In this document: in pieces, positions 17,866 to 61,038 of the stretch | Layout: each line of letters opens with the position of its first letter | Numbering within the stretch: the first letter of the stretch is position 1 | From: an uncultured Bacteroidota bacterium | GTDB taxonomy: Bacteria; Bacteroidota; Bacteroidia; Flavobacteriales; Flavobacteriaceae | Assembly: GCA_902523635.1 (NCBI GenBank) | Contig: CABZAE010000001.1 | Coordinates: 1 to 64,000 of the forward strand | Direction: 5' to 3' | DNA length: 64,000 nucleotides | Notes under the pieces: generated by a model | What the model was told of the DNA's origin: nothing | The model's input: the letters and a program-made list of their open reading frames with translations, nothing else | Database searches by the model: none | Position numbers and translations under genes: made by a program

Positions 17866-19056
17866 ATGAATTTACACGAATATCAGGCAAAAAATATTTT
17901 AGAGGAACATGGTGTATCAATACAGCGAGGAAAAGTTCTTTTCGATAGAAATGATATAAAAAAAGTTACAGATAAATTGGTTTCTGAAACAAATACTAAG
18001 TGTTTCGTGGTCAAAGCTCAAATTCATGCTGGTGGTAGAGGCAAAGGAGGTGGGGTCAAAATTGCCAAAAACAGAACTGATTTAGATAAAGTTGTTTCGG
18101 AAATTTTAGGTATGAGATTAATCACCCCCCAAACACCAAAAGAGGGTAAGTTAGTTAATCAAGTCCTTATTTCTGAAGATGTGTATTACCCAGGTCCTAG
18201 TGAAATAAAAGAATTTTATGTTTCAGTACTTCTAAATAGAAAGTCTGGTAAAAATATGATTATGTACTCAACTGAAGGTGGAGTAGATATTGAGTCCGTT
18301 GCAGAAAAAACACCTGAAAAAATATTTTATGAAGAAATTGATCCATTGATCGGGATTATGCCTTTTCAATCTAGAAGGGTTGCTTTTAATTTGGGTTTGG
18401 TAGGAGAATCATACAAAAACATGGTAAAGTTTGTGACGCTATTATATAATTGTTACACATCATCTGACGCGTCCTTATTTGAAATAAACCCTGTATTGAA
18501 GACCTCAGATGATAAAATTATTGCTGTTGACGCAAAAGTATCATTGGATGATAATTCCCTTTTTAGGCATAAAAAATTTGAGTTACTAAGAGATTTAAAA
18601 GAAGAGAATCCAATTGAAACCCAAGCCAAATCAGTTGGTCTGAATTATGTTGATTTGGATGGGAATGTTGGTTGTATGGTTAATGGTGCTGGATTGGCTA
18701 TGGCTACTATGGATTTAATCAAACAATCCGGCGGAGATCCGGCAAATTTTCTTGACGTTGGAGGAACAGCAGATGCAAAAAGAGTTGAGACAGCTTTTAG
18801 ACTAATATTAAAAGACAAAAACGTTAGAATCATTTTAGTTAATATTTTTGGAGGAATCGTTAGGTGTGACCGTGTTGCACAAGGAATTGTTGATGCTCTA
18901 AATAACATGAAAAATGAGATACATGTTCCTATAATTGTAAGACTTCAAGGAACAAATTCATCCATTGCAAAACAAATAATTGATAGTTGTGGTCACAAAG
19001 TTTACAGCGCAGTAGAGTTTCAAGAAGCATCTGACAAAATACAAGAACTTATATAA
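17866..19056 (+). CDS. sucC: Succinyl-CoA synthetase (ADP-forming), beta subunit
   Basis: SucC is the ATP-grasp subunit of the TCA-cycle enzyme that makes ATP from succinyl-CoA. The 396-residue protein starts MNLHEYQAKNILEEHGVSI, has the ATP-grasp lysine in FVVKAQIHAGGRGKGGGVK, and carries GCMVNGAGLAMATMD and LDVGGTADAKRVETAF plus NIFGGIVRCDRVAQGI near the C-terminus. Three residues of the ORF-track start (MLL) were removed because the family begins MNLHEYQ. The alpha subunit gene sucD is not next to it, which is common in this phylum. Confidence 0.97.
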   Translation: MNLHEYQAKNILEEHGVSIQRGKVLFDRNDIKKVTDKLVSETNTKCFVVKAQIHAGGRGKGGGVKIAKNRTDLDKVVSEILGMRLITPQTPKEGKLVNQVLISEDVYYPGPSEIKEFYVSVLLNRKSGKNMIMYSTEGGVDIESVAEKTPEKIFYEEIDPLIGIMPFQSRRVAFNLGLVGESYKNMVKFVTLLYNCYTSSDASLFEINPVLKTSDDKIIAVDAKVSLDDNSLFRHKKFELLRDLKEENPIETQAKSVGLNYVDLDGNVGCMVNGAGLAMATMDLIKQSGGDPANFLDVGGTADAKRVETAFRLILKDKNVRIILVNIFGGIVRCDRVAQGIVDALNNMKNEIHVPIIVRLQGTNSSIAKQIIDSCGHKVYSAVEFQEASDKIQELI

Positions 19057-19058
19057 AT

Positions 19059-19102
19059 TGACATATTGTCATTTATTTTTTCCTATATAAAGACATATTG
19101 TC
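19059..19102. promoter_or_regulatory. Pair of palindromic operator-like sites upstream of hsp20
   Basis: TGACATATTGTCA at 19059-19071 is a perfect 5-3-5 inverted repeat. The same core GACATATTGTC recurs at 19092-19102. The two centres are 32 bp apart, close to three helical turns, so a bound protein would sit on the same face of the DNA. The sites lie between the sucC stop and a sigma-54-like element. This looks like an activator or repressor binding pair; the binding protein is unknown. Confidence 0.65.
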
Positions 19103-19115
19103 ATGTTTTTCAGCA

Positions 19116-19130
19116 TGGCATTTATTTTGT
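19116..19130 (+). promoter_or_regulatory. Sigma-54-like promoter element of hsp20
   Basis: TGGCATTTATTTTGT has GG and G-T separated by exactly ten bases, as in the -24/-12 sigma-54 consensus TGGCAC-N5-TTGC, except that the -12 GC reads GT. The inferred start lies about 30 bases before the hsp20 ATG. No TAnnTTTG box is seen in this intergenic region. Assignment is tentative. Confidence 0.4.
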
Positions 19131-19172
19131 TTCATAGCTTATCGTAATAATGTTTAACTAAAAAAATAAATT

Positions 19173-19592
19173 ATGAATTTAATAAAAAGACAATCTTATT
19201 TTCCTTCAATCTTTGATGAATTTTTCAGTGATAACTGGGACATTAAGATGATGAATGATAAGTATATTTCTCCATCATACAATATCAAGGAAAACGAAAA
19301 AGAATTCGTTATCGAAATAGCAATTCCAGGTAAAAATAATACGGATTTTAATATCGAAATTGAAAACAGATCACTTTTAATTTCTACAAATAATGAAAAT
19401 GAAAATTCGAACTATACATATTCAAGAAGAGATTTTGGTTTTTCAAAATTTGAAAAAACTTTTGATTTACCAATTTCTGTAGAAAATAATAAGGTGAATT
19501 CTTATTACCGTAATGGAGTTTTGACAATAAACCTGCCTAAAAGAAAGGAATTTCAAAATAGTGCCAAGCAGGTTATTGAAGTAAAAAATTAA
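19173..19592 (+). CDS. Small heat-shock protein (Hsp20/alpha-crystallin family)
   Basis: Small heat-shock proteins bind unfolding proteins without ATP and keep them refoldable. The 139-residue protein has an aromatic-rich N-terminus (QSYFPSIFDEFFSDNW) and an alpha-crystallin domain: SPSYNIKENEKEFVIEIAIPGKNNTDFNIEIENRSLLIS, then YYRNGVLTINLPKR, the family signature near the C-terminus. Size is normal. It is a single-gene unit: a dedicated 116-bp regulatory region lies upstream and a strong terminator downstream, which fits stress-controlled expression. Confidence 0.95.
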   Translation: MNLIKRQSYFPSIFDEFFSDNWDIKMMNDKYISPSYNIKENEKEFVIEIAIPGKNNTDFNIEIENRSLLISTNNENENSNYTYSRRDFGFSKFEKTFDLPISVENNKVNSYYRNGVLTINLPKRKEFQNSAKQVIEVKN

Positions 19593-19623
19593 AAAAAGGG
19601 AAGAGTTTTCTTCCCTTTTTTTA
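19593..19623. terminator. Bidirectional terminator between hsp20 and uvrB
   Basis: AAAAAGGGAAGA and TCTTCCCTTTTT form a long perfect stem around the loop GTTT, with A-run on one side and T-run on the other. Read from either strand it is a hairpin followed by T residues, so it can end both hsp20 (+) and uvrB (-). The uvrB stop codon is at its right edge. Confidence 0.85.
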
Positions 19624-21591
19624 TTCTTTGAGTTTTTTAATTATGTCTCTAAATTTTGCAGCCTCAATAAAATCGAGAGATTTTGCAGCTTTTTCCATTT
19701 GTTTTCTGTATTTTTTTATTTCTTTCTCTTTTCTTTCCTTGGTCATGTTTTCAAAATCAATTTCTAATGTTTCTTGATCTTTATATGTATTTTCAATTTG
19801 TCTAGATTCAAAAATATCTGAAACTATTTTATTAATTGGTTTTGGAATTATTTTATTTCTAATATTATACTCTTTTTGTTTATTTCTTCTGTAATTAGTT
19901 TCGTCAATAGTTTTTTTCATACTGCTCGTGACTTTATTGGCGTACATTATTGCTTTACCATTTAAATTTCTGGCAGCTCTTCCAATTGTTTGTGTAAGGG
20001 ATTTATAACTTCTTAAAAAACCTTCTTTATCTGCATCTAATATTACAACTAGTGATACTTCGGGAAGATCCAACCCTTCTCTTAGTAAATTTACACCTAC
20101 AAGAACATCGAATAAACCTTTTCTTAACCCATGCATAATTTCTACTCTCTCAAGTGTATCAATGTCACTGTGTATATAGCGACATCTAACATCGATCTGA
20201 CTGAGAAATTTTACGAGTTCTTCAGACATTCTCTTTGTTAGTGTCGTAATCAATACTCTCTCATCCCTTTCAACTACAATCTGTACTTCGCCGATCAGAT
20301 CATCAATTTGATTTTCACTTGGTTTAATAACTATTTTTGGGTCAAGTAATCCTGTAGGTCTTATAATTTGTTCTACGTAAAGCCCCTCTGTCTTGATCAT
20401 TTCATAGTCAGATGGTGTAGCACTAACATAAATGACTTGATCTTGTATTAGTTCAAATTCTTCGTATTTTAATGGTCTATTATCCATTGCTGCAGGTAAG
20501 CGAAACCCATATTCAACCAGATTTTCTTTTCTACTTCTGTCACCACCATACATCGCGTGAACTTGAGAGAGGGTAACGTGACTCTCATCCACAATCATCA
20601 AATAATCATCAGAAAAATAGTCTAACAAGCAAAAAGGTCTTGTCCCAGGGCTTCTTCCATCTATGTATCTTGAATAATTTTCAATACCAGAACAGTAACC
20701 CAGTTCTGCAATCATCTCCAAGTCAAAATTTGTTCTTTCATACAGACGTTTTGCCTCAAGGTGTTTTCCAATTTCTTTAAAATAAAGAACTTGTTTATCA
20801 AGATCTTCTTTAATTTCATCCATTGCATTTTTCAATACATCCGGCGATGTTGCAAACATATTTGCTGGATAAATTGATAAAGTATCAATTTTTTTTAAAA
20901 CTTTGTTATTGAGTGGGTCAAAAATCTCAATTTCCTCAATTTCATCTCCAAAAAAATGAATTTTAAATGCATGATCTGCGTAACTCGGATAAACATCAAT
21001 AATATCTCCTGAAACTTTAAAATTTCCACTTAAGAATTCAAGATTTGATCTTGAATATAAGCTCTGAACAAGCTTGTGTAAAAGTTTAGTTCTTGAAATG
21101 ATTTGATTTTTTTCAATTTGGACTATGTTTCTTTTGAACTCAGAGGGATTACCGATGCCATATAAGCATGAGACAGAGGCTACAACGATAACATCCCTGC
21201 GACCTGATAGCAAAGATGATGTAGTGCTTAATCTTAACTTTTCAATTTCCTCATTTATAGATAAATCTTTTTCAATGTAAGTTCCAGTTACAGGTATATA
21301 GGCTTCTGGTTGATAGTAATCATAATATGAAACAAAATATTCTACCGCATTATTCGGAAAATAATTTTTAAACTCAGTGTAAAGTTGAGCAGCCAACGTT
21401 TTATTATGGGCTAAAACCAAAGTTGGTTTGTTTACTTTTTGAATCACATTTGCAACAGTAAATGTTTTACCGGATCCAGTAACACCTTTTAAAATTTGAT
21501 ACTTATAATTGGCATTTAGCCCATCAACTAAATGATTTATGGCTTCCGGTTGGTCCCCTGTAGGTTTATAATCTGACTTTAGTTCAAACAA
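19621..21591 (-). CDS. uvrB: UvrABC system protein B
   Basis: UvrB is the damage-verifying helicase of nucleotide excision repair. The 656-residue protein carries all family marks: Walker A in LKGVTGSGKTFTVANV, the beta-hairpin in EYFVSYYDYYQPEAYIP, DESHVTL, VGVNLLREGLDLPEVSLV, SLTQTIGRAARN, and a C-terminal UVR motif (EKEIKKYRKQMEKAAKSLDFIEAAKFRD) for UvrA/UvrC contact. The start codon is TTG; no ATG is available in frame upstream before the promoter. The upstream gene is divergent. Confidence 0.98.
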   Translation of the reverse strand: MFELKSDYKPTGDQPEAINHLVDGLNANYKYQILKGVTGSGKTFTVANVIQKVNKPTLVLAHNKTLAAQLYTEFKNYFPNNAVEYFVSYYDYYQPEAYIPVTGTYIEKDLSINEEIEKLRLSTTSSLLSGRRDVIVVASVSCLYGIGNPSEFKRNIVQIEKNQIISRTKLLHKLVQSLYSRSNLEFLSGNFKVSGDIIDVYPSYADHAFKIHFFGDEIEEIEIFDPLNNKVLKKIDTLSIYPANMFATSPDVLKNAMDEIKEDLDKQVLYFKEIGKHLEAKRLYERTNFDLEMIAELGYCSGIENYSRYIDGRSPGTRPFCLLDYFSDDYLMIVDESHVTLSQVHAMYGGDRSRKENLVEYGFRLPAAMDNRPLKYEEFELIQDQVIYVSATPSDYEMIKTEGLYVEQIIRPTGLLDPKIVIKPSENQIDDLIGEVQIVVERDERVLITTLTKRMSEELVKFLSQIDVRCRYIHSDIDTLERVEIMHGLRKGLFDVLVGVNLLREGLDLPEVSLVVILDADKEGFLRSYKSLTQTIGRAARNLNGKAIMYANKVTSSMKKTIDETNYRRNKQKEYNIRNKIIPKPINKIVSDIFESRQIENTYKDQETLEIDFENMTKERKEKEIKKYRKQMEKAAKSLDFIEAAKFRDIIKKLKE

Positions 21592-54285: not shown

Positions 54286-55788
54286 TTAAAAAGGGTTTAA
54301 ATCACTTATCTTTTCATTTTTATTAACTCTGCCAGAAAGTTTATTTTTTTTAATAAGGTTTATTAAACTGTCGTTGTATTTTTGACTAAAAAGTAAGTTT
54401 GTTTCTGAGGGTATTGGAGCATTATTTTCTGTTAACCATGCTTCGAGTTCATCCAAAAGTTCATTCGTTTTTTCTTTCTCAATTTTAGATAAATTATTTG
54501 ATTCTGAAATATCATTATTTAAATTGTATAACTCAATTTTATTGTTCTCATAATATCTGTGAAGTTTCCAATCCCCTTTGATTAAAACCGACCCTGGTCT
54601 AGTTCTAAATAAAGGATCTGTACCATTATCTTTGTGAACATCATATGGCTCAAGGTAGACAGGAAAATGAAAAAACAAACCTCTTTTTTTAAGTTTTTTT
54701 CCTCTAAAAATGTTTGTTAGATCCATTCCATCTAGTTCTAGCTTTTCATCATATCCAATAATTTTTTTGATAGTAGGAAAAAAGTCTATATTACTAACTC
54801 TTTCTTGGGATGTAGATCCAGATTTTATTTTACCAGGCCATGAAATAATCAATGGAACCCTTATTCCACCCTCATAATATGAACCTTTACCGGCTCGAAG
54901 TGGATGTTGGTTTGAAATCGATCTTATTCCTCCGTTATCTGATGTGAAAATAATTAACGTATTATTTTCTAAATTAAGTTCTTTGATTTTATTTAATATT
55001 TTTCCAATGTTTTCATCAAGTGACTGTATCATACCGGCATAATCAGCTCTGTTGTGAAAATCATCACTTTTCTTTGTTTTGTATTTACTTTCATATTCTG
55101 GTTTGGCTTGAATGGGTGTATGTACAGAGTAAAATGGTACATAAGCAAAAAATTTATTGTTTTTGTTTTTTTCAATAAATTTAACTACTTCGGTTCCTAA
55201 TCTATCAGTCAAGTAATCTTCTTTTGGGTCAGTTTTTAAATTCTGGTTCACATTACGGTATGGTGGGAAATAACTTCCGGGCCCACCACTTTCGTTTCCC
55301 CCTAAATTAAAATCAAATCCCATGTCTTCAGGATAATATCCAAGAGGTCCCATGTGCCATTTTCCAAAATGTCCGTTAACATAGCCTTTAGATTTAAGCA
55401 TTTCAGGAATAATAAAATGATTGTGTTCAAGTTTGGTTTTTGTTTTAATTGGGATTATTTTTCTGGTTTTACGGTTTCCTCTGTCAGAGTTTCTCACCGT
55501 ATAAATTCCGTGGTAGGGATGATATTTTCCGGTCAACATTGTAGCTCTACTTGGAGCACAATTTGCAGAAGATGCATATCCATTTAAAAATGTCATTCCG
55601 TTTTTTGATAGTTTATCAATGTTTGATGTTTCGTAAAAACTTGATCCCATGTATGAAACATCAGTCCAGCCTAAATCATCTGCAACAATTAACACAATAT
55701 TGGGTGCTTCATCTCTTATCACATTTTTGCATGATACCAATACATAAAGTGTAATAAATAAAAATGTTTTAAATATATACTTATTCAT
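54286..55788 (-). CDS. Lipoprotein sulfatase (S1 family)
   Basis: This 500-residue protein has a lipobox at Cys20 (LFITLYVLVSC), IVLIVADDLGWTDVSYMGSS and the formylglycine site ANCAPSRATMLTGKY (Cys77). GHFGKWHMGPLG, VPFYSVHTPIQAKPEY and FTSDNGGIRS are the other active-site blocks. It resembles arylsulfatase A-type enzymes of Bacteroidetes polysaccharide loci. The start overlaps the upstream sulfatase by eight bases, so the two are co-transcribed, and the pair lies divergent from the susC/susD genes. Confidence 0.93.
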   Translation of the reverse strand: MNKYIFKTFLFITLYVLVSCKNVIRDEAPNIVLIVADDLGWTDVSYMGSSFYETSNIDKLSKNGMTFLNGYASSANCAPSRATMLTGKYHPYHGIYTVRNSDRGNRKTRKIIPIKTKTKLEHNHFIIPEMLKSKGYVNGHFGKWHMGPLGYYPEDMGFDFNLGGNESGGPGSYFPPYRNVNQNLKTDPKEDYLTDRLGTEVVKFIEKNKNNKFFAYVPFYSVHTPIQAKPEYESKYKTKKSDDFHNRADYAGMIQSLDENIGKILNKIKELNLENNTLIIFTSDNGGIRSISNQHPLRAGKGSYYEGGIRVPLIISWPGKIKSGSTSQERVSNIDFFPTIKKIIGYDEKLELDGMDLTNIFRGKKLKKRGLFFHFPVYLEPYDVHKDNGTDPLFRTRPGSVLIKGDWKLHRYYENNKIELYNLNNDISESNNLSKIEKEKTNELLDELEAWLTENNAPIPSETNLLFSQKYNDSLINLIKKNKLSGRVNKNEKISDLNPF

Positions 55789-57661
55789 TATTTGTTAAAT
55801 AATTCATCCTCCTATTAACTAGAGCATTTTCGTTTCTTATCGGTGGTAACCAATTTTCGGGGAATACATCTTTACTAAGTTCTAACTTGTAACTTGGGTT
55901 TTTGGTTTTTAGAAGTGCAAGTGTATTGAGCATTAAATTAGCTTCTGTTTCGGTTTTTGCACTTTTTAATAAGTTTTTAATTTTCTCATTATTGATTTTT
56001 TGACCATTCAGTAGCAGATATTCAGCAGCTCTTATTTTAACTAAATTCTCCAAATCTTTTTCAAATAAATAATTAATTTTGTTTAAATTTTCAATTGCTT
56101 CAATTCCAAAAGATGAACATATGATAAGTCCCCAGTATCTGACCCATGGATTGGGATCATTAAGTGCATTTTGAATTTTTTTGGAAACATCTTCATAATC
56201 ATAAAAAACTAGGTTTGAAATATTTCTTAGTCTTTTAATTAATTTTTTGTGGTTTTTGGAAAAATCTTCCACATCTTCTAAACCATTTGCCACGAAGTAG
56301 GGTTCAGGTAGAAAGCTAAGATCATTTGTTAAGTCTAAATGATTCTCAAGTTCACCCCTCATTTCTTCCAACTTTTTTTGCTGATTAACATCCTCAGCCA
56401 AATTTTGAATTTCATATGGATCATTTGAAATATTGTACAAAGCTTCGGATGATTTTGTTTTAAAAAACTGGCTTTGTATGTTATTTAATTTGCCTTGGTT
56501 GTATAAACGATACCATTCTTTATATGCTAACATTTCATAGCGGTAAAAATTGTAAAGTCCATCAACATTGAATGGTTGAAAGTTTCTTATGTATTTATAT
56601 TTGCCTTTTCTTACCGATCGAACAAAATCATATTTTTCATCAAATCTGTCAGCATACCCAAAAGTGATGTCCTGTTTTTCTAAGTTTACTTTTTTTAAAT
56701 CTTTTCCAAGAAATGGATTACCATCTAAAAACTCTGGGATCTTTATTCCAGCAATGGACAAAACAGTTGGCAACAAATCAACAAAATCAACAAAAGTTGG
56801 AGTTCTGGTACCATTTTCAAATGGATTCAAGTGCTTCCATTTTTCTGGAATATAAACCACAAGCGGAACATTTAGTCCTGTTTCATATAAGTAACCTTTA
56901 CTTCTAGGTAGTACTCCACCATGGTCACTGTAATAAAATATAATTGTGTTTTCCATCAATCCATCATTCTCCAGTTCTTTTACAAATTTTCCAATTTCTT
57001 TGTCAACATCGTTGTGGTGTTTGTAATACAAAGATTGTGTATATCTAAATGTGGGAGTGTCTGGATGATATGGAAATGGTTTTATTGAGTCAAGATTATT
57101 AAGTTCCAGTCCATCAATTAATTGCTCCTTATTAAAGTGAAGACTTCCCTCATGGGTATTGTGATAATTTTGAACATGGAAAAATGGTTGACCTTCAGCT
57201 CTATTTTTATATGATGCATTTTTTGATGATTCATCCCATACTTTACCTTCTTTTATAAAATTGTAATCTTCTTTCGCATTATTTGTTGTATAGTAGCCAT
57301 TTTCAGAGAGATAAACTGGAAGAGGTTTAATTGTTTTAGGGAGTTTTACCATTTTCATTTTTCGATGATACTGAGTTCCAATTCTTGGTGCATATGTTCC
57401 TGTAATGATTGTACTCCTAGCAACAGAACAAACGGGTGCATTTGAAAAAACATTTTCAAAAATAATTCCATCCTCAGCAAGTGCCGAGATTGTTGGCATA
57501 TTGGCACCACCTGCATTGTATAAATTCATATAATGAGTGGAATTATCCTCAGTTACAAGCCATACGATGTTTGGTTTTTCAACTTTTTTCAAATCACTTG
57601 TAGAACAAGCATTAAGAAAAACAAAAATTAAAAATAAGTAGATAGTTTTTGTCATTTTCAT
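55781..57661 (-). CDS. Lipoprotein sulfatase with variant active site (CSVAR) and HEAT-like tail
   Basis: The 626-residue protein has a lipobox (IFVFLNAC, Cys19) and an alkaline-phosphatase-superfamily sulfatase domain starting PNIVWLVTEDNSTHYM, where the usual DDLG reads TEDN. The active-site motif reads PVCSVARSTIITG (Cys78): the usual C-x-P/A-x-R has valine at the third position. Other metal-site parts are present (FYYSDHGGVLPRSKG). From about residue 480 the sequence becomes helical with HEAT-like repeats (PNPWVRYWGLIICSSFG, LVKIRAAEYLLLNG). This resembles heparan N-sulfatase-like enzymes rather than classical arylsulfatases. An ATG two codons later is an alternative start. Confidence 0.88.
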   Translation of the reverse strand: MKMTKTIYLFLIFVFLNACSTSDLKKVEKPNIVWLVTEDNSTHYMNLYNAGGANMPTISALAEDGIIFENVFSNAPVCSVARSTIITGTYAPRIGTQYHRKMKMVKLPKTIKPLPVYLSENGYYTTNNAKEDYNFIKEGKVWDESSKNASYKNRAEGQPFFHVQNYHNTHEGSLHFNKEQLIDGLELNNLDSIKPFPYHPDTPTFRYTQSLYYKHHNDVDKEIGKFVKELENDGLMENTIIFYYSDHGGVLPRSKGYLYETGLNVPLVVYIPEKWKHLNPFENGTRTPTFVDFVDLLPTVLSIAGIKIPEFLDGNPFLGKDLKKVNLEKQDITFGYADRFDEKYDFVRSVRKGKYKYIRNFQPFNVDGLYNFYRYEMLAYKEWYRLYNQGKLNNIQSQFFKTKSSEALYNISNDPYEIQNLAEDVNQQKKLEEMRGELENHLDLTNDLSFLPEPYFVANGLEDVEDFSKNHKKLIKRLRNISNLVFYDYEDVSKKIQNALNDPNPWVRYWGLIICSSFGIEAIENLNKINYLFEKDLENLVKIRAAEYLLLNGQKINNEKIKNLLKSAKTETEANLMLNTLALLKTKNPSYKLELSKDVFPENWLPPIRNENALVNRRMNYLTNNE

Positions 57662-58005: not shown

Positions 58006-61000
58006 ATGAAAACAACAAAATTTAAAATCATTTTATTGCTATTATTATGCTCATCATCGCTTGTTTTTTCACAAGTCATGGTCCAGGGAACAGTTTCAGA
58101 TTCAAGTGGAAATCTGCTTCCTGGTGTTAGCATTGTAGAAAAGGGTACTACTAATGGAACAGTTTCTGACTTTGATGGTAATTTTGAATTATCAGTTCAA
58201 GATGATGCAATAATTATTTTCTCTTATGTGGGATTTCTAACCCAAGCAGTTGGGGCATCTTCCACGCTGGATATCATCCTGGAGGAGGACATTGCAAATT
58301 TAGAGGAGGTTATTGTGACTGGATATGGTGGTGTAAGAAAGAAAGACTTGGTTTCATCGATTTCCCAAATTAAAGGCGATGCAATTGAAAATAAACCAGT
58401 TTCCAGAGTTGATAATCTTCTTCAAGGTCAAGCTGCCGGAGTTGAAGTTACCCAAGTCAGTGGTGAGCCGGGTGTTGGAGCAGCCATCAGGATTAGAGGG
58501 GTTAGTTCAATAAACGGTAACAACTCCCCACTTTACGTAATTGATGGATTTATTGCCGGAACAGGTTATAATCTTTCCAATTTAAATGTTAATGATATTG
58601 AATCCATTCAAGTTTTGAAAGATGCTAGTTCTCTTGCTCTTTACGGAACTAGAGGAGCCTCAGGGGTGATACTTATTAACACAAAAAGTGGAAAAGCTAG
58701 TAAAGAGGGTACAGTCAATGTTGCTGTTAATCATTATACCACATTTGCAAGTGTGACAAGGATGCCTCAAACTGCTGATCTTAAAACCTATGCTGAATTT
58801 TGGAACGAGGCAGTTACTTTTGTACCCGGCGCCGATGGTTACGGTGATAATGACTCTTCATTAGCTGTACCTTATCCAGATTATCAGACAATGATTCCTA
58901 CAGACTGGAAGGGCTTGGTACTAAGAGATGGATTGGTTTCCAATACTGACGTTACGGTAAGTGGAAATTCAGAAAAATCCAATTATTATGTCTCTTTCAA
59001 TAAATATGTAGAAGATGGTGTAATTAAAGCCAGTGGAATTAACAGAAATAATTTGAGGATTAATTTTGATACCAACTTAAATAATAATTTCAGGACAGGA
59101 GTTCGTCTAAATTTAACAAATAGAAAAGTTGAATCTAACAAGGTTAATCTTGACCAGTTGTACATGAGAATTCTTCCAACAAGAAAAGTATACAATGAGG
59201 ATGGTACATATACAGGCATAAATCCATACAGCTCAAGTAATGAGCAAAACCCTGTAGCTAGAATTGAACATGCTATCGATCATAATCGGATAACAAATTT
59301 AGTTACCAATGCTTACGTTGAGTATGATCCAATTCCTGGACTTACTTTTAGATCCACACTTGGTGTAAACATGAATTTTGTTAAACAAAATGATTATTTA
59401 GGAAATATAATTCCAGCTAGAAGAATATCTGGAAATGGCGGTTTAGCTATCATCGGTAATGAGCTTTACAAAAGTGTACTAAATGAAAATACTTTGACTT
59501 ATGAAACTGAGTATGGTGACAGTAGATTGACTGTTTTAGCTGGTTTTACATTGCAAAAAAATAAAATAGAATCAAATGGAGCTAGAGCTGAGGGCTTTCC
59601 CAATGATGTTGTAACTTTCAATAATTTATCTTTGGGATCTGATCCTTCCAAACATCAGGTCCGTTCCGGTTTCAATCAACGTACTTTTACCTCCATACTT
59701 GCCAGAATTAATTACAGCTATAAAGACAAATATCTTTTGACACTCGTTGGAAGAGAAGATGGTTCATCCGTATTTGAGACTGGAAGAAAATTTGCATTCT
59801 TTCCCTCGGCTGGTGCAGCATGGAGAATTGACCAAGAAGACTTTATGAGCAACCAAAATACGATCAGTAATTTTAAATTGAGAGCTAGTTATGGTGTTGT
59901 TGGAGAACAAGGAGTACCAACGTATAACTCCCTTGAAAAATTCTCAACTTACACTGTTTTCTTTAACAATCAAATACAAAATGCAGTTTTAATAAATAGT
60001 CTTCCAAGTAAAAATTTAACTTGGGAAAAAACATATCAAACTGATATCGGTTTTGAAATGGGATTTTTAGATAACAAGGTTAATCTAGAGTTTGATTATT
60101 ACAATAAGCAAACTAAAGACCTTCTTTTGGCTAAACCTCTTCCCGGAACAGCTGGTGGAACTAGATTAGAGAACGTTGGTGAAATCGAAAACGTAGGTTT
60201 TGAAGCCTCTGTGAGTTCTGTAAATATTCAAAAAAATGATTTCAACTGGAGCTCAACGTTTACGATTTCATCTAATAAAAATAAAGTATTAAGTCTTGGG
60301 GCTGAAGAGTACATTGATTTGAGATCACCAAATCATGGTGCTGGAGGATCCGCATTTAGATTGGTACCTGGTCAGCCAGGTCCCGTTATGATGGGGTTAA
60401 ATTACCTAGGAACTTATAAAACTCGTGCTGAAATTGATGCTGATGGTGTAAAAGGTTCATCTTTCTTAGGCAGTCCAAGATACGAAGATGTGGATAAGAA
60501 TGGTGTTATAAACGACCTTGATATGGTTGTTTTGGGAAGTGCACAGCCAGATTTTTATGGTGGTCTTCGAAACACACTTACTTACAAAAATTTCACTCTT
60601 GACTTTTTCATTCATGGTTCATATGGAAATGAGATATTCGATGCTTCCATGCAAACAGGAATTTTTGGAAGAGGAGGTGACGTTATGGTTTTACCTGCTG
60701 TCAAAGACCGTTGGACTCCAAATAATCCAACATCTGATATTCCAAGAGCAGGTGTAAATGCTGGTTCATTCCAATTAAACAATTCATACAATATTATAGA
60801 TGGGTCATTTTTAAGATTAAAAAATGTTACACTATCTTACGATTTTGATCCCAATCCAAAACTTTTTGACAGCGCTAGGCTATATGTCTCTGGAAATAAT
60901 TTAGCTCTTTTAACTAAATTTGGTTGGGGAGATCCTGAACAAAGCAATTATGGAGCGAACTCATTGGAACTTGGAGCAGCTGAGGACGCTTACCCTTACA

Positions 61001-61038
61001 CAACATCAATTACAGTCGGACTTAAATTAAATCTATAA
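58006..61038 (+). CDS. SusC/RagA-family TonB-dependent outer-membrane transporter
   Basis: SusC-type proteins import oligosaccharides across the outer membrane with a SusD lid. The 1010 residues carry a signal peptide (IILLLLLCSSSLVFSQ), a carboxypeptidase-regulatory-like domain (VQGTVSDSSGNLLPGVSIVEKGTTNGTVSDFDGNF, about 25-95), the TonB box region EEVIVTGYG, a plug domain (GVRKKDLVSSISQIKGD to GASGVILINTKSGK) and the beta-barrel ending in an aromatic-poor SITVGLKLNL. Length is typical. susD starts two bases after the stop. Neighbouring sulfatases point to a sulfated glycan as the ligand. Confidence 0.96.
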   Translation: MKTTKFKIILLLLLCSSSLVFSQVMVQGTVSDSSGNLLPGVSIVEKGTTNGTVSDFDGNFELSVQDDAIIIFSYVGFLTQAVGASSTLDIILEEDIANLEEVIVTGYGGVRKKDLVSSISQIKGDAIENKPVSRVDNLLQGQAAGVEVTQVSGEPGVGAAIRIRGVSSINGNNSPLYVIDGFIAGTGYNLSNLNVNDIESIQVLKDASSLALYGTRGASGVILINTKSGKASKEGTVNVAVNHYTTFASVTRMPQTADLKTYAEFWNEAVTFVPGADGYGDNDSSLAVPYPDYQTMIPTDWKGLVLRDGLVSNTDVTVSGNSEKSNYYVSFNKYVEDGVIKASGINRNNLRINFDTNLNNNFRTGVRLNLTNRKVESNKVNLDQLYMRILPTRKVYNEDGTYTGINPYSSSNEQNPVARIEHAIDHNRITNLVTNAYVEYDPIPGLTFRSTLGVNMNFVKQNDYLGNIIPARRISGNGGLAIIGNELYKSVLNENTLTYETEYGDSRLTVLAGFTLQKNKIESNGARAEGFPNDVVTFNNLSLGSDPSKHQVRSGFNQRTFTSILARINYSYKDKYLLTLVGREDGSSVFETGRKFAFFPSAGAAWRIDQEDFMSNQNTISNFKLRASYGVVGEQGVPTYNSLEKFSTYTVFFNNQIQNAVLINSLPSKNLTWEKTYQTDIGFEMGFLDNKVNLEFDYYNKQTKDLLLAKPLPGTAGGTRLENVGEIENVGFEASVSSVNIQKNDFNWSSTFTISSNKNKVLSLGAEEYIDLRSPNHGAGGSAFRLVPGQPGPVMMGLNYLGTYKTRAEIDADGVKGSSFLGSPRYEDVDKNGVINDLDMVVLGSAQPDFYGGLRNTLTYKNFTLDFFIHGSYGNEIFDASMQTGIFGRGGDVMVLPAVKDRWTPNNPTSDIPRAGVNAGSFQLNNSYNIIDGSFLRLKNVTLSYDFDPNPKLFDSARLYVSGNNLALLTKFGWGDPEQSNYGANSLELGAAEDAYPYTTSITVGLKLNL

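Follow-up and report, generated by a model that had tools for sequence, protein, structure and literature searches.

A conserved promoter element upstream of hsp20 suggests sigma-54-dependent heat-shock control of chaperone genes in the Flavobacteriales

Background

Sigma-54 control of chaperone genes is already known in the Bacteroidota, having been mapped in Flavobacterium psychrophilum (PMC9723704) and predicted from sequence in the phylum (PMC12316311). The mapped 5' ends of F. psychrophilum groESL, lon, dnaK, grpE-dnaJ, htpG and clpB lie at sigma-54 motifs, and the available sections of that report leave open which of three PF00158 proteins is the acting activator (PMC9723704). A 2025 in silico survey described GroEL, GroES, GrpE, DnaJ, DnaK and the small Hsp (COG0071) as enriched under sigma-54 promoters in the Bacteroidota, with the predicted chaperone cluster strongest in the Flavobacteriia (PMC12316311). 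The factor that switches on the chaperone genes of this phylum is not named in the literature that we searched. No rpoH is known from the Bacteroidota.

PspF, an AAA+ enhancer-binding protein that lacks a receiver and ends in a Fis-type helix-turn-helix (HTH), drives a sigma-54 stress operon and regulates its own gene, while PspA acts on it as a bound inhibitor. Here we analyze the control region of hsp20 in a 64,000-nucleotide stretch of DNA (the window) from an uncultured member of the Flavobacteriaceae. An initial annotation of this region had proposed an activator-dependent sigma-54 heat-shock promoter, and the sequence comparisons reported below support that interpretation, those of its refuting conditions that sequence could address having all come out in its favour. 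They extend it with a consensus for the palindromes (TGNCA-N3-TGNCA), with the restriction of a second site to hsp20 and groESL, and with a specific gene proposed to encode the activator.

Results

The open reading frame of hsp20 (19173-19592, + strand) encodes a small heat-shock protein of 139 residues (Pfam PF00011, E 8e-19), and the 116 bases that separate it from sucC contain two palindromes followed by the sequence TGGCATTTATTTTGT. The distal palindrome, TGACATATTGTCA (19059-19071, centre 19065), and the proximal palindrome, AGACATATTGTCA (19091-19103, centre 19097), have the 13-mer GACATATTGTCAT in common as identical copies 32 bp apart, and both are candidate activator sites to which no strand is assigned. 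Between the end of the proximal palindrome and the TGG of the -24 box there are 12 bp. The -24/-12 element itself (19116-19130, + strand) has its GG at 19117-19118, then ten bases and a G at 19129, which is the GG-N10-G spacing of sigma-54 promoters. Sigma-54 geometry and the position of the -24 GG predict a transcription start near 19141 (19139-19143, + strand), which would centre the palindromes at about -76 and -44. The activator positions put forward in the initial annotation fit this start, and other chaperone promoters have an identical distance between proximal site and -24 box. A bidirectional intrinsic terminator with a 15-bp stem and a T-run on both strands (19590-19623, no strand assigned) lies between hsp20 and a convergent uvrB-like gene.

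Taken within the window alone, these matches are weak. The -24/-12 pattern with one mismatch occurs 27 times against 23 expected, which is unremarkable, and the presence of two GACA-N3-TGTC sites in 64 kb was equalled by 4 of 100 shuffles, making it mildly unusual. The palindrome core GACATATTGTC has no further copy in the organism's own 1.2-Mb, 62%-complete draft genome. The -12 element at hsp20 ends in GT or GA instead of the consensus GC, which counts against the sigma-54 reading; across the promoters, this dinucleotide is GT, GA or GC, varying by gene and species. The box TAnnTTTG, which the initial annotation had described as missing, is indeed absent from positions 18851-19808. The would-be second base of the box is not an A in the hsp20 promoters of the genus that were read, so no sigma-A box is hidden in their -12 region, and a sigma-A promoter of this type at hsp20 was rejected on these two grounds. 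The CIRCE operator TTAGCACTC-N9-GAGTGCTAA has no match in the window even when up to 3 mismatches are allowed, and its core is absent from all 270 fetched loci, in keeping with the earlier view that the promoter is not based on CIRCE/HrcA. The only further exact palindrome of the window (57494-57506) falls inside a sulfatase-like coding sequence and was taken as a chance match. The sulfatase-like gene at 55781-57661 and a divergent SusC-type receptor gene at 58006-61038 resemble a polysaccharide-utilisation locus.

It is conservation that makes the hsp20 element significant in these sequence comparisons. The genus set comprised 22 genomes, and hsp20 was detected in 18 of them. Both palindromes are present at an offset of 32 in all 18 upstream regions and a TGG-N9-TG box occupies a fixed offset in the same 18, so that the proposed arrangement of paired palindromes and GG-N10-G element is borne out in every genus member with a detected hsp20. 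These 18 promoters carry 0-3 mismatches over 21 fixed positions, whereas the minimum among 5400 Markov-shuffled sequences was 5; because the 21-position template was refined on related promoters, the shuffle null is somewhat generous, and the reversed-control genome search given below is independent of it. The three-base centre and single arm positions of the palindromes vary while the symmetry is kept, a pattern expected for a protein-binding site. Judged by these comparisons, the arrangement of palindromes and -24/-12 box is confirmed as real and far from chance.

Several observations at hsp20 stand beside this result. The alignment of leaders and promoters held one mis-placed row (L004), and its 'invariant' columns therefore understate conservation; the 18/18 counts come from other comparisons. 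Upstream of hsp20 in Flavobacterium cerinum (L024), the pair TGCCAAAAAGTCA and AGCCATTTTGGCA has its centres about 20 bp apart (two helical turns, not three) and lies 13 bp before TGGAATAAAAGTTGT, which is GG-N10-G; this promoter misfits the genus template, with 8 mismatches. At the distant loci L025-L028 the hsp20 match begins at query residue 13 or 34 and not at the start codon, so they carry no promoter information. The hsp20 leader (19150-19172 in the window, and its counterparts in relatives) contains a strongly conserved stretch, TTTGTTTAAY-TTAAAA, roughly 20 nt upstream of the start codon, which is altered to ATGTTTAAC in the window and perhaps has a role in translation initiation.

The genomes were then searched with the pattern TGNCA-N3-TGNCA-N12-TGGY-N8-TG, with the reversed pattern as control. 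With at most one mismatch, the pattern was found at 73 places in the 22 genus genomes and the control at 0. By sequence class these places comprise dnaK (18), htpG (16), grpE (13), hsp20 (13), groES (7) and other (6). Of the 73, 66 were classed by sequence as chaperone promoters (dnaK, htpG, grpE-dnaJ, groESL, hsp20), the gene being read directly for most. The organism's own genome contributes three places, at hsp20, grpE (C1:186990) and groES (C7:8896), and one of the six 'other' places adjoins the gene of a candidate activator, bEBP B, at the miaB operon. The initial annotation had suggested looking for the site at further stress genes, and dnaK, htpG, grpE-dnaJ and groESL do carry the element. 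Among the genes that it named, dnaK and groEL (the latter as groESL) were matched; clpB and lon gave no match to the pattern in the genus genomes, although both have sigma-54 promoters in F. psychrophilum (PMC9723704), and this counts against the model. In one genus member, an htpG-class promoter (1 of the 16) lies ahead of a thioredoxin gene (L258; G006:C45, 3000-6000, minus strand); it is nearly identical to the htpG promoter (TGTCAATTTGTCA...TTTGGTATACCATTTG), and thioredoxin may have joined the regulon there.

The 12-bp spacing between palindrome and TGG is common to the hsp20, grpE, dnaK, htpG and groES promoters. A second palindrome lies 31-33 bp further upstream at hsp20 (32 bp in 18/18) and groES, while the grpE, dnaK and htpG promoters have one palindrome only. 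Across the order, 58 of the 119 genomes contain the exact pattern, with 76 places in all (0 for the control), and 27 of the 29 loci read were grpE, htpG, dnaK or groES. Other Bacteroidia also have the pattern at grpE, htpG and dnaK; matches outside the class were scattered, two of them resembling tRNA-Leu sequence.

Sigma-54 itself (rpoN) was detected in 21 of the 22 genus genomes and in 23 of 23 selected genomes of the order. The initial annotation had called for rpoN in the genome, which holds for the genus with the sole exception of the organism's own 62%-complete draft, where the gene was not found. The genus has rpoN, GG-N10-G spacing at the promoter and candidate activator sites on one helical face. 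The sigma-54 activators also sought there are present as two strong proteins in the genus genomes, designated bEBP A and bEBP B. bEBP A, of about 388 residues, has a receiver and an AAA+ domain with a GAFTSA loop and no HTH, and is encoded behind grpE-dnaJ-mscS. The grpE, dnaJ, mscS-like and bEBP A genes are tightly packed on one strand (L082:3043-6702; G000:C1:187042-190701), and the grpE heat-shock promoter therefore probably also drives bEBP A.

bEBP B (G000:C7:10450-11679 in the organism's own genome; about 410-430 residues) has its AAA+ domain nearly at the N-terminus (PF00158, E 5e-66, GAFTGA loop present) and a C-terminal Fis-type HTH (PF02954, HTH_8, E 1.7e-13) in which GIS(E/Q)RTLYRKIK is kept across families. 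It has neither a receiver nor an N-terminal sensor domain. Against the PspF equivalog model TIGR02974 it scores 268 bits, below the curated cut-off of 443.55. The gene lies between miaB and lptE in the order miaB-bEBP-lptE-secG-groESL, with groESL downstream, and was found in 112 of the 119 order genomes. Fourteen complete genomes of 0.34-0.6 Mb, to judge by their size presumably those of insect symbionts, encode no bEBP other than this one and also have rpoN, and it is the sole bEBP in 5 of 6 other small genomes tested; two of these genomes with bEBP B alone (L128, L129) carry the element at the grpE promoter. That bEBP B and rpoN have been kept in such strongly reduced genomes suggests a nearly indispensable circuit. 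In the larger genomes of the order, further bEBPs accompany bEBP B, which counts against the assignment. On the basis of co-occurrence, domain content and location, bEBP B is most likely the activator of the chaperone promoters.

The palindrome also occurs upstream of miaB, at the head of the bEBP B operon, in 23 of 25 loci. Where a TAnnTTTG box was found, the palindrome usually ends 17-20 or 7-8 bp before it. In 300 kb surrounding the bEBP B genes, 2.5 such palindromes were expected and 33 were found; nearly all of those close to the gene are at miaB or groES. A palindrome at the sigma-A promoter of the bEBP B operon in most loci suggests autoregulation; its position fits autorepression, and bEBP B probably represses or tunes its own operon. 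Within the genus, the distance from operator to -7 box is either 17-18 bp or 8 bp (L085, L087 and L096 versus L083, L089, L090 and L092), so that the two spacings differ by roughly one turn of the helix.

Discussion

From the element, with its geometry, target genes and conservation, and from the joint presence of rpoN and bEBP B, we infer binding, activation, autoregulation and a stress signal, and we hold it to be highly probable that the hsp20 region is a sigma-54-dependent heat-shock promoter with bEBP B as the most likely activator of a chaperone regulon. Sigma-54 RNA polymerase would sit waiting on TGGCATTTATTTTGT, and the AAA+ enhancer-binding protein would bind the TGNCA-N3-TGNCA palindromes, which are centred close to -44 and -76 on the same side of the helix. 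When proteins misfold, it would contact the sigma-54 polymerase at -24/-12 and open the promoter by ATP hydrolysis. A single activator could in this way drive the whole regulon, through two sites at hsp20 and groESL and through one at grpE-dnaJ, dnaK and htpG, and bEBP B would limit its own synthesis through the palindrome beside the TAnnTTTG sigma-A promoter. Its lack of receiver and sensor domains, combined with a PspF-like layout, suggests control by a bound inhibitor. By analogy with the action of PspA on PspF, we speculate that such an inhibitor (possibly a chaperone) or chaperone titration is the most plausible mode of sensing.

The closest competing account keeps the sigma-54 promoter and assigns activation to another enhancer-binding protein, namely the receiver protein bEBP A of the grpE-dnaJ-mscS operon, or to both proteins together. 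bEBP A is a strong PF00158 protein encoded directly behind grpE-dnaJ, and its receiver would provide sensory input; it has, however, no DNA-binding domain and a GAFTSA in place of GAFTGA, and the complete small genomes have bEBP B alone, with the element at grpE in the two that were read. We regard this account as unlikely. Still less probable is that a regulator from another family, be it repressor or activator, recognizes the palindromes at a sigma-A promoter, with an incidental resemblance to -24/-12. The Bacteroidota sigma-A box does resemble the -12 region and the same palindrome accompanies a sigma-A promoter at miaB, but at five different genes palindrome and TGG keep a spacing of exactly 12 bp, hsp20 lacks the A of TAnnTTTG, and all near-complete genomes tested have rpoN. 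The orthologous promoters in the reported part of the F. psychrophilum map are, moreover, sigma-54 promoters (PMC9723704).

Two further explanations dispense with an activator site or with transcriptional heat control, and we give either of them hardly any credence. Read as terminators of the upstream sucC, the palindromes and the T-runs after them would account for a terminator-like hairpin called at 19099-19120; that hairpin requires additional bases beyond the palindrome, which relatives do not conserve, and the same palindromes stand in other gene contexts at dnaK, htpG and miaB. Heat control could also be exerted after transcription by an RNA thermometer in the leader, leaving the DNA element as a housekeeping promoter only. 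The conservation of the hsp20 leader (TTTGTTTAAC-TTAAAA) would suit such a device, but the leader matches no Rfam thermometer and its fold is no more stable than that of shuffled sequence (z 0.47). A sigma-54 promoter acted on by bEBP B remains the preferred reading. Its generalization is likely as well: in the Flavobacteriales, and probably in other Bacteroidia, bEBP B would be the master activator of the heat-shock response, acting on sigma-54 promoters from one palindrome at -44 or from two at -44/-76 and repressing its own sigma-A promoter via the same palindrome. The response would then be built on sigma-54 and not on sigma-32 or HrcA.

The literature that we searched holds no description of the enhancer, of its fixed geometry or of the miaB-linked bEBP as chaperone activator; subscription journals were little covered by it, so an earlier description is possible. 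The conserved enhancer and the lone activator of the smallest genomes make the question of the chaperone activator directly testable.

With the SM4 promoters of F. psychrophilum the present promoters share the class of sigma factor, the genes (groESL, dnaK, grpE-dnaJ, htpG) and the -24/-12 type (PMC9723704). In its available sections that study maps starts and names neither an activator nor an enhancer sequence, and hsp20 is not in its printed selection (PMC9723704). The Bacteroidota survey, in its available part, gives the promoter motif only and assigns no enhancer site or activator to chaperone promoters (PMC12316311). The CIRCE/HrcA and sigma-32 systems have the same target genes as those found here; in contrast to them, we propose positive control through sigma-54, at loci without CIRCE. 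bEBP B is similar to PspF in its AAA+ domain and, like it, is a receiver-less AAA+ protein with a C-terminal Fis-type HTH; in our proposal it would also resemble PspF in driving sigma-54 stress genes and in regulating its own gene. It differs from PspF in its proposed targets, which are genes of cytosolic chaperones and not psp genes, in its different operator, in its long linker between AAA+ domain and HTH, and in its conserved miaB-lptE-groESL neighbourhood.
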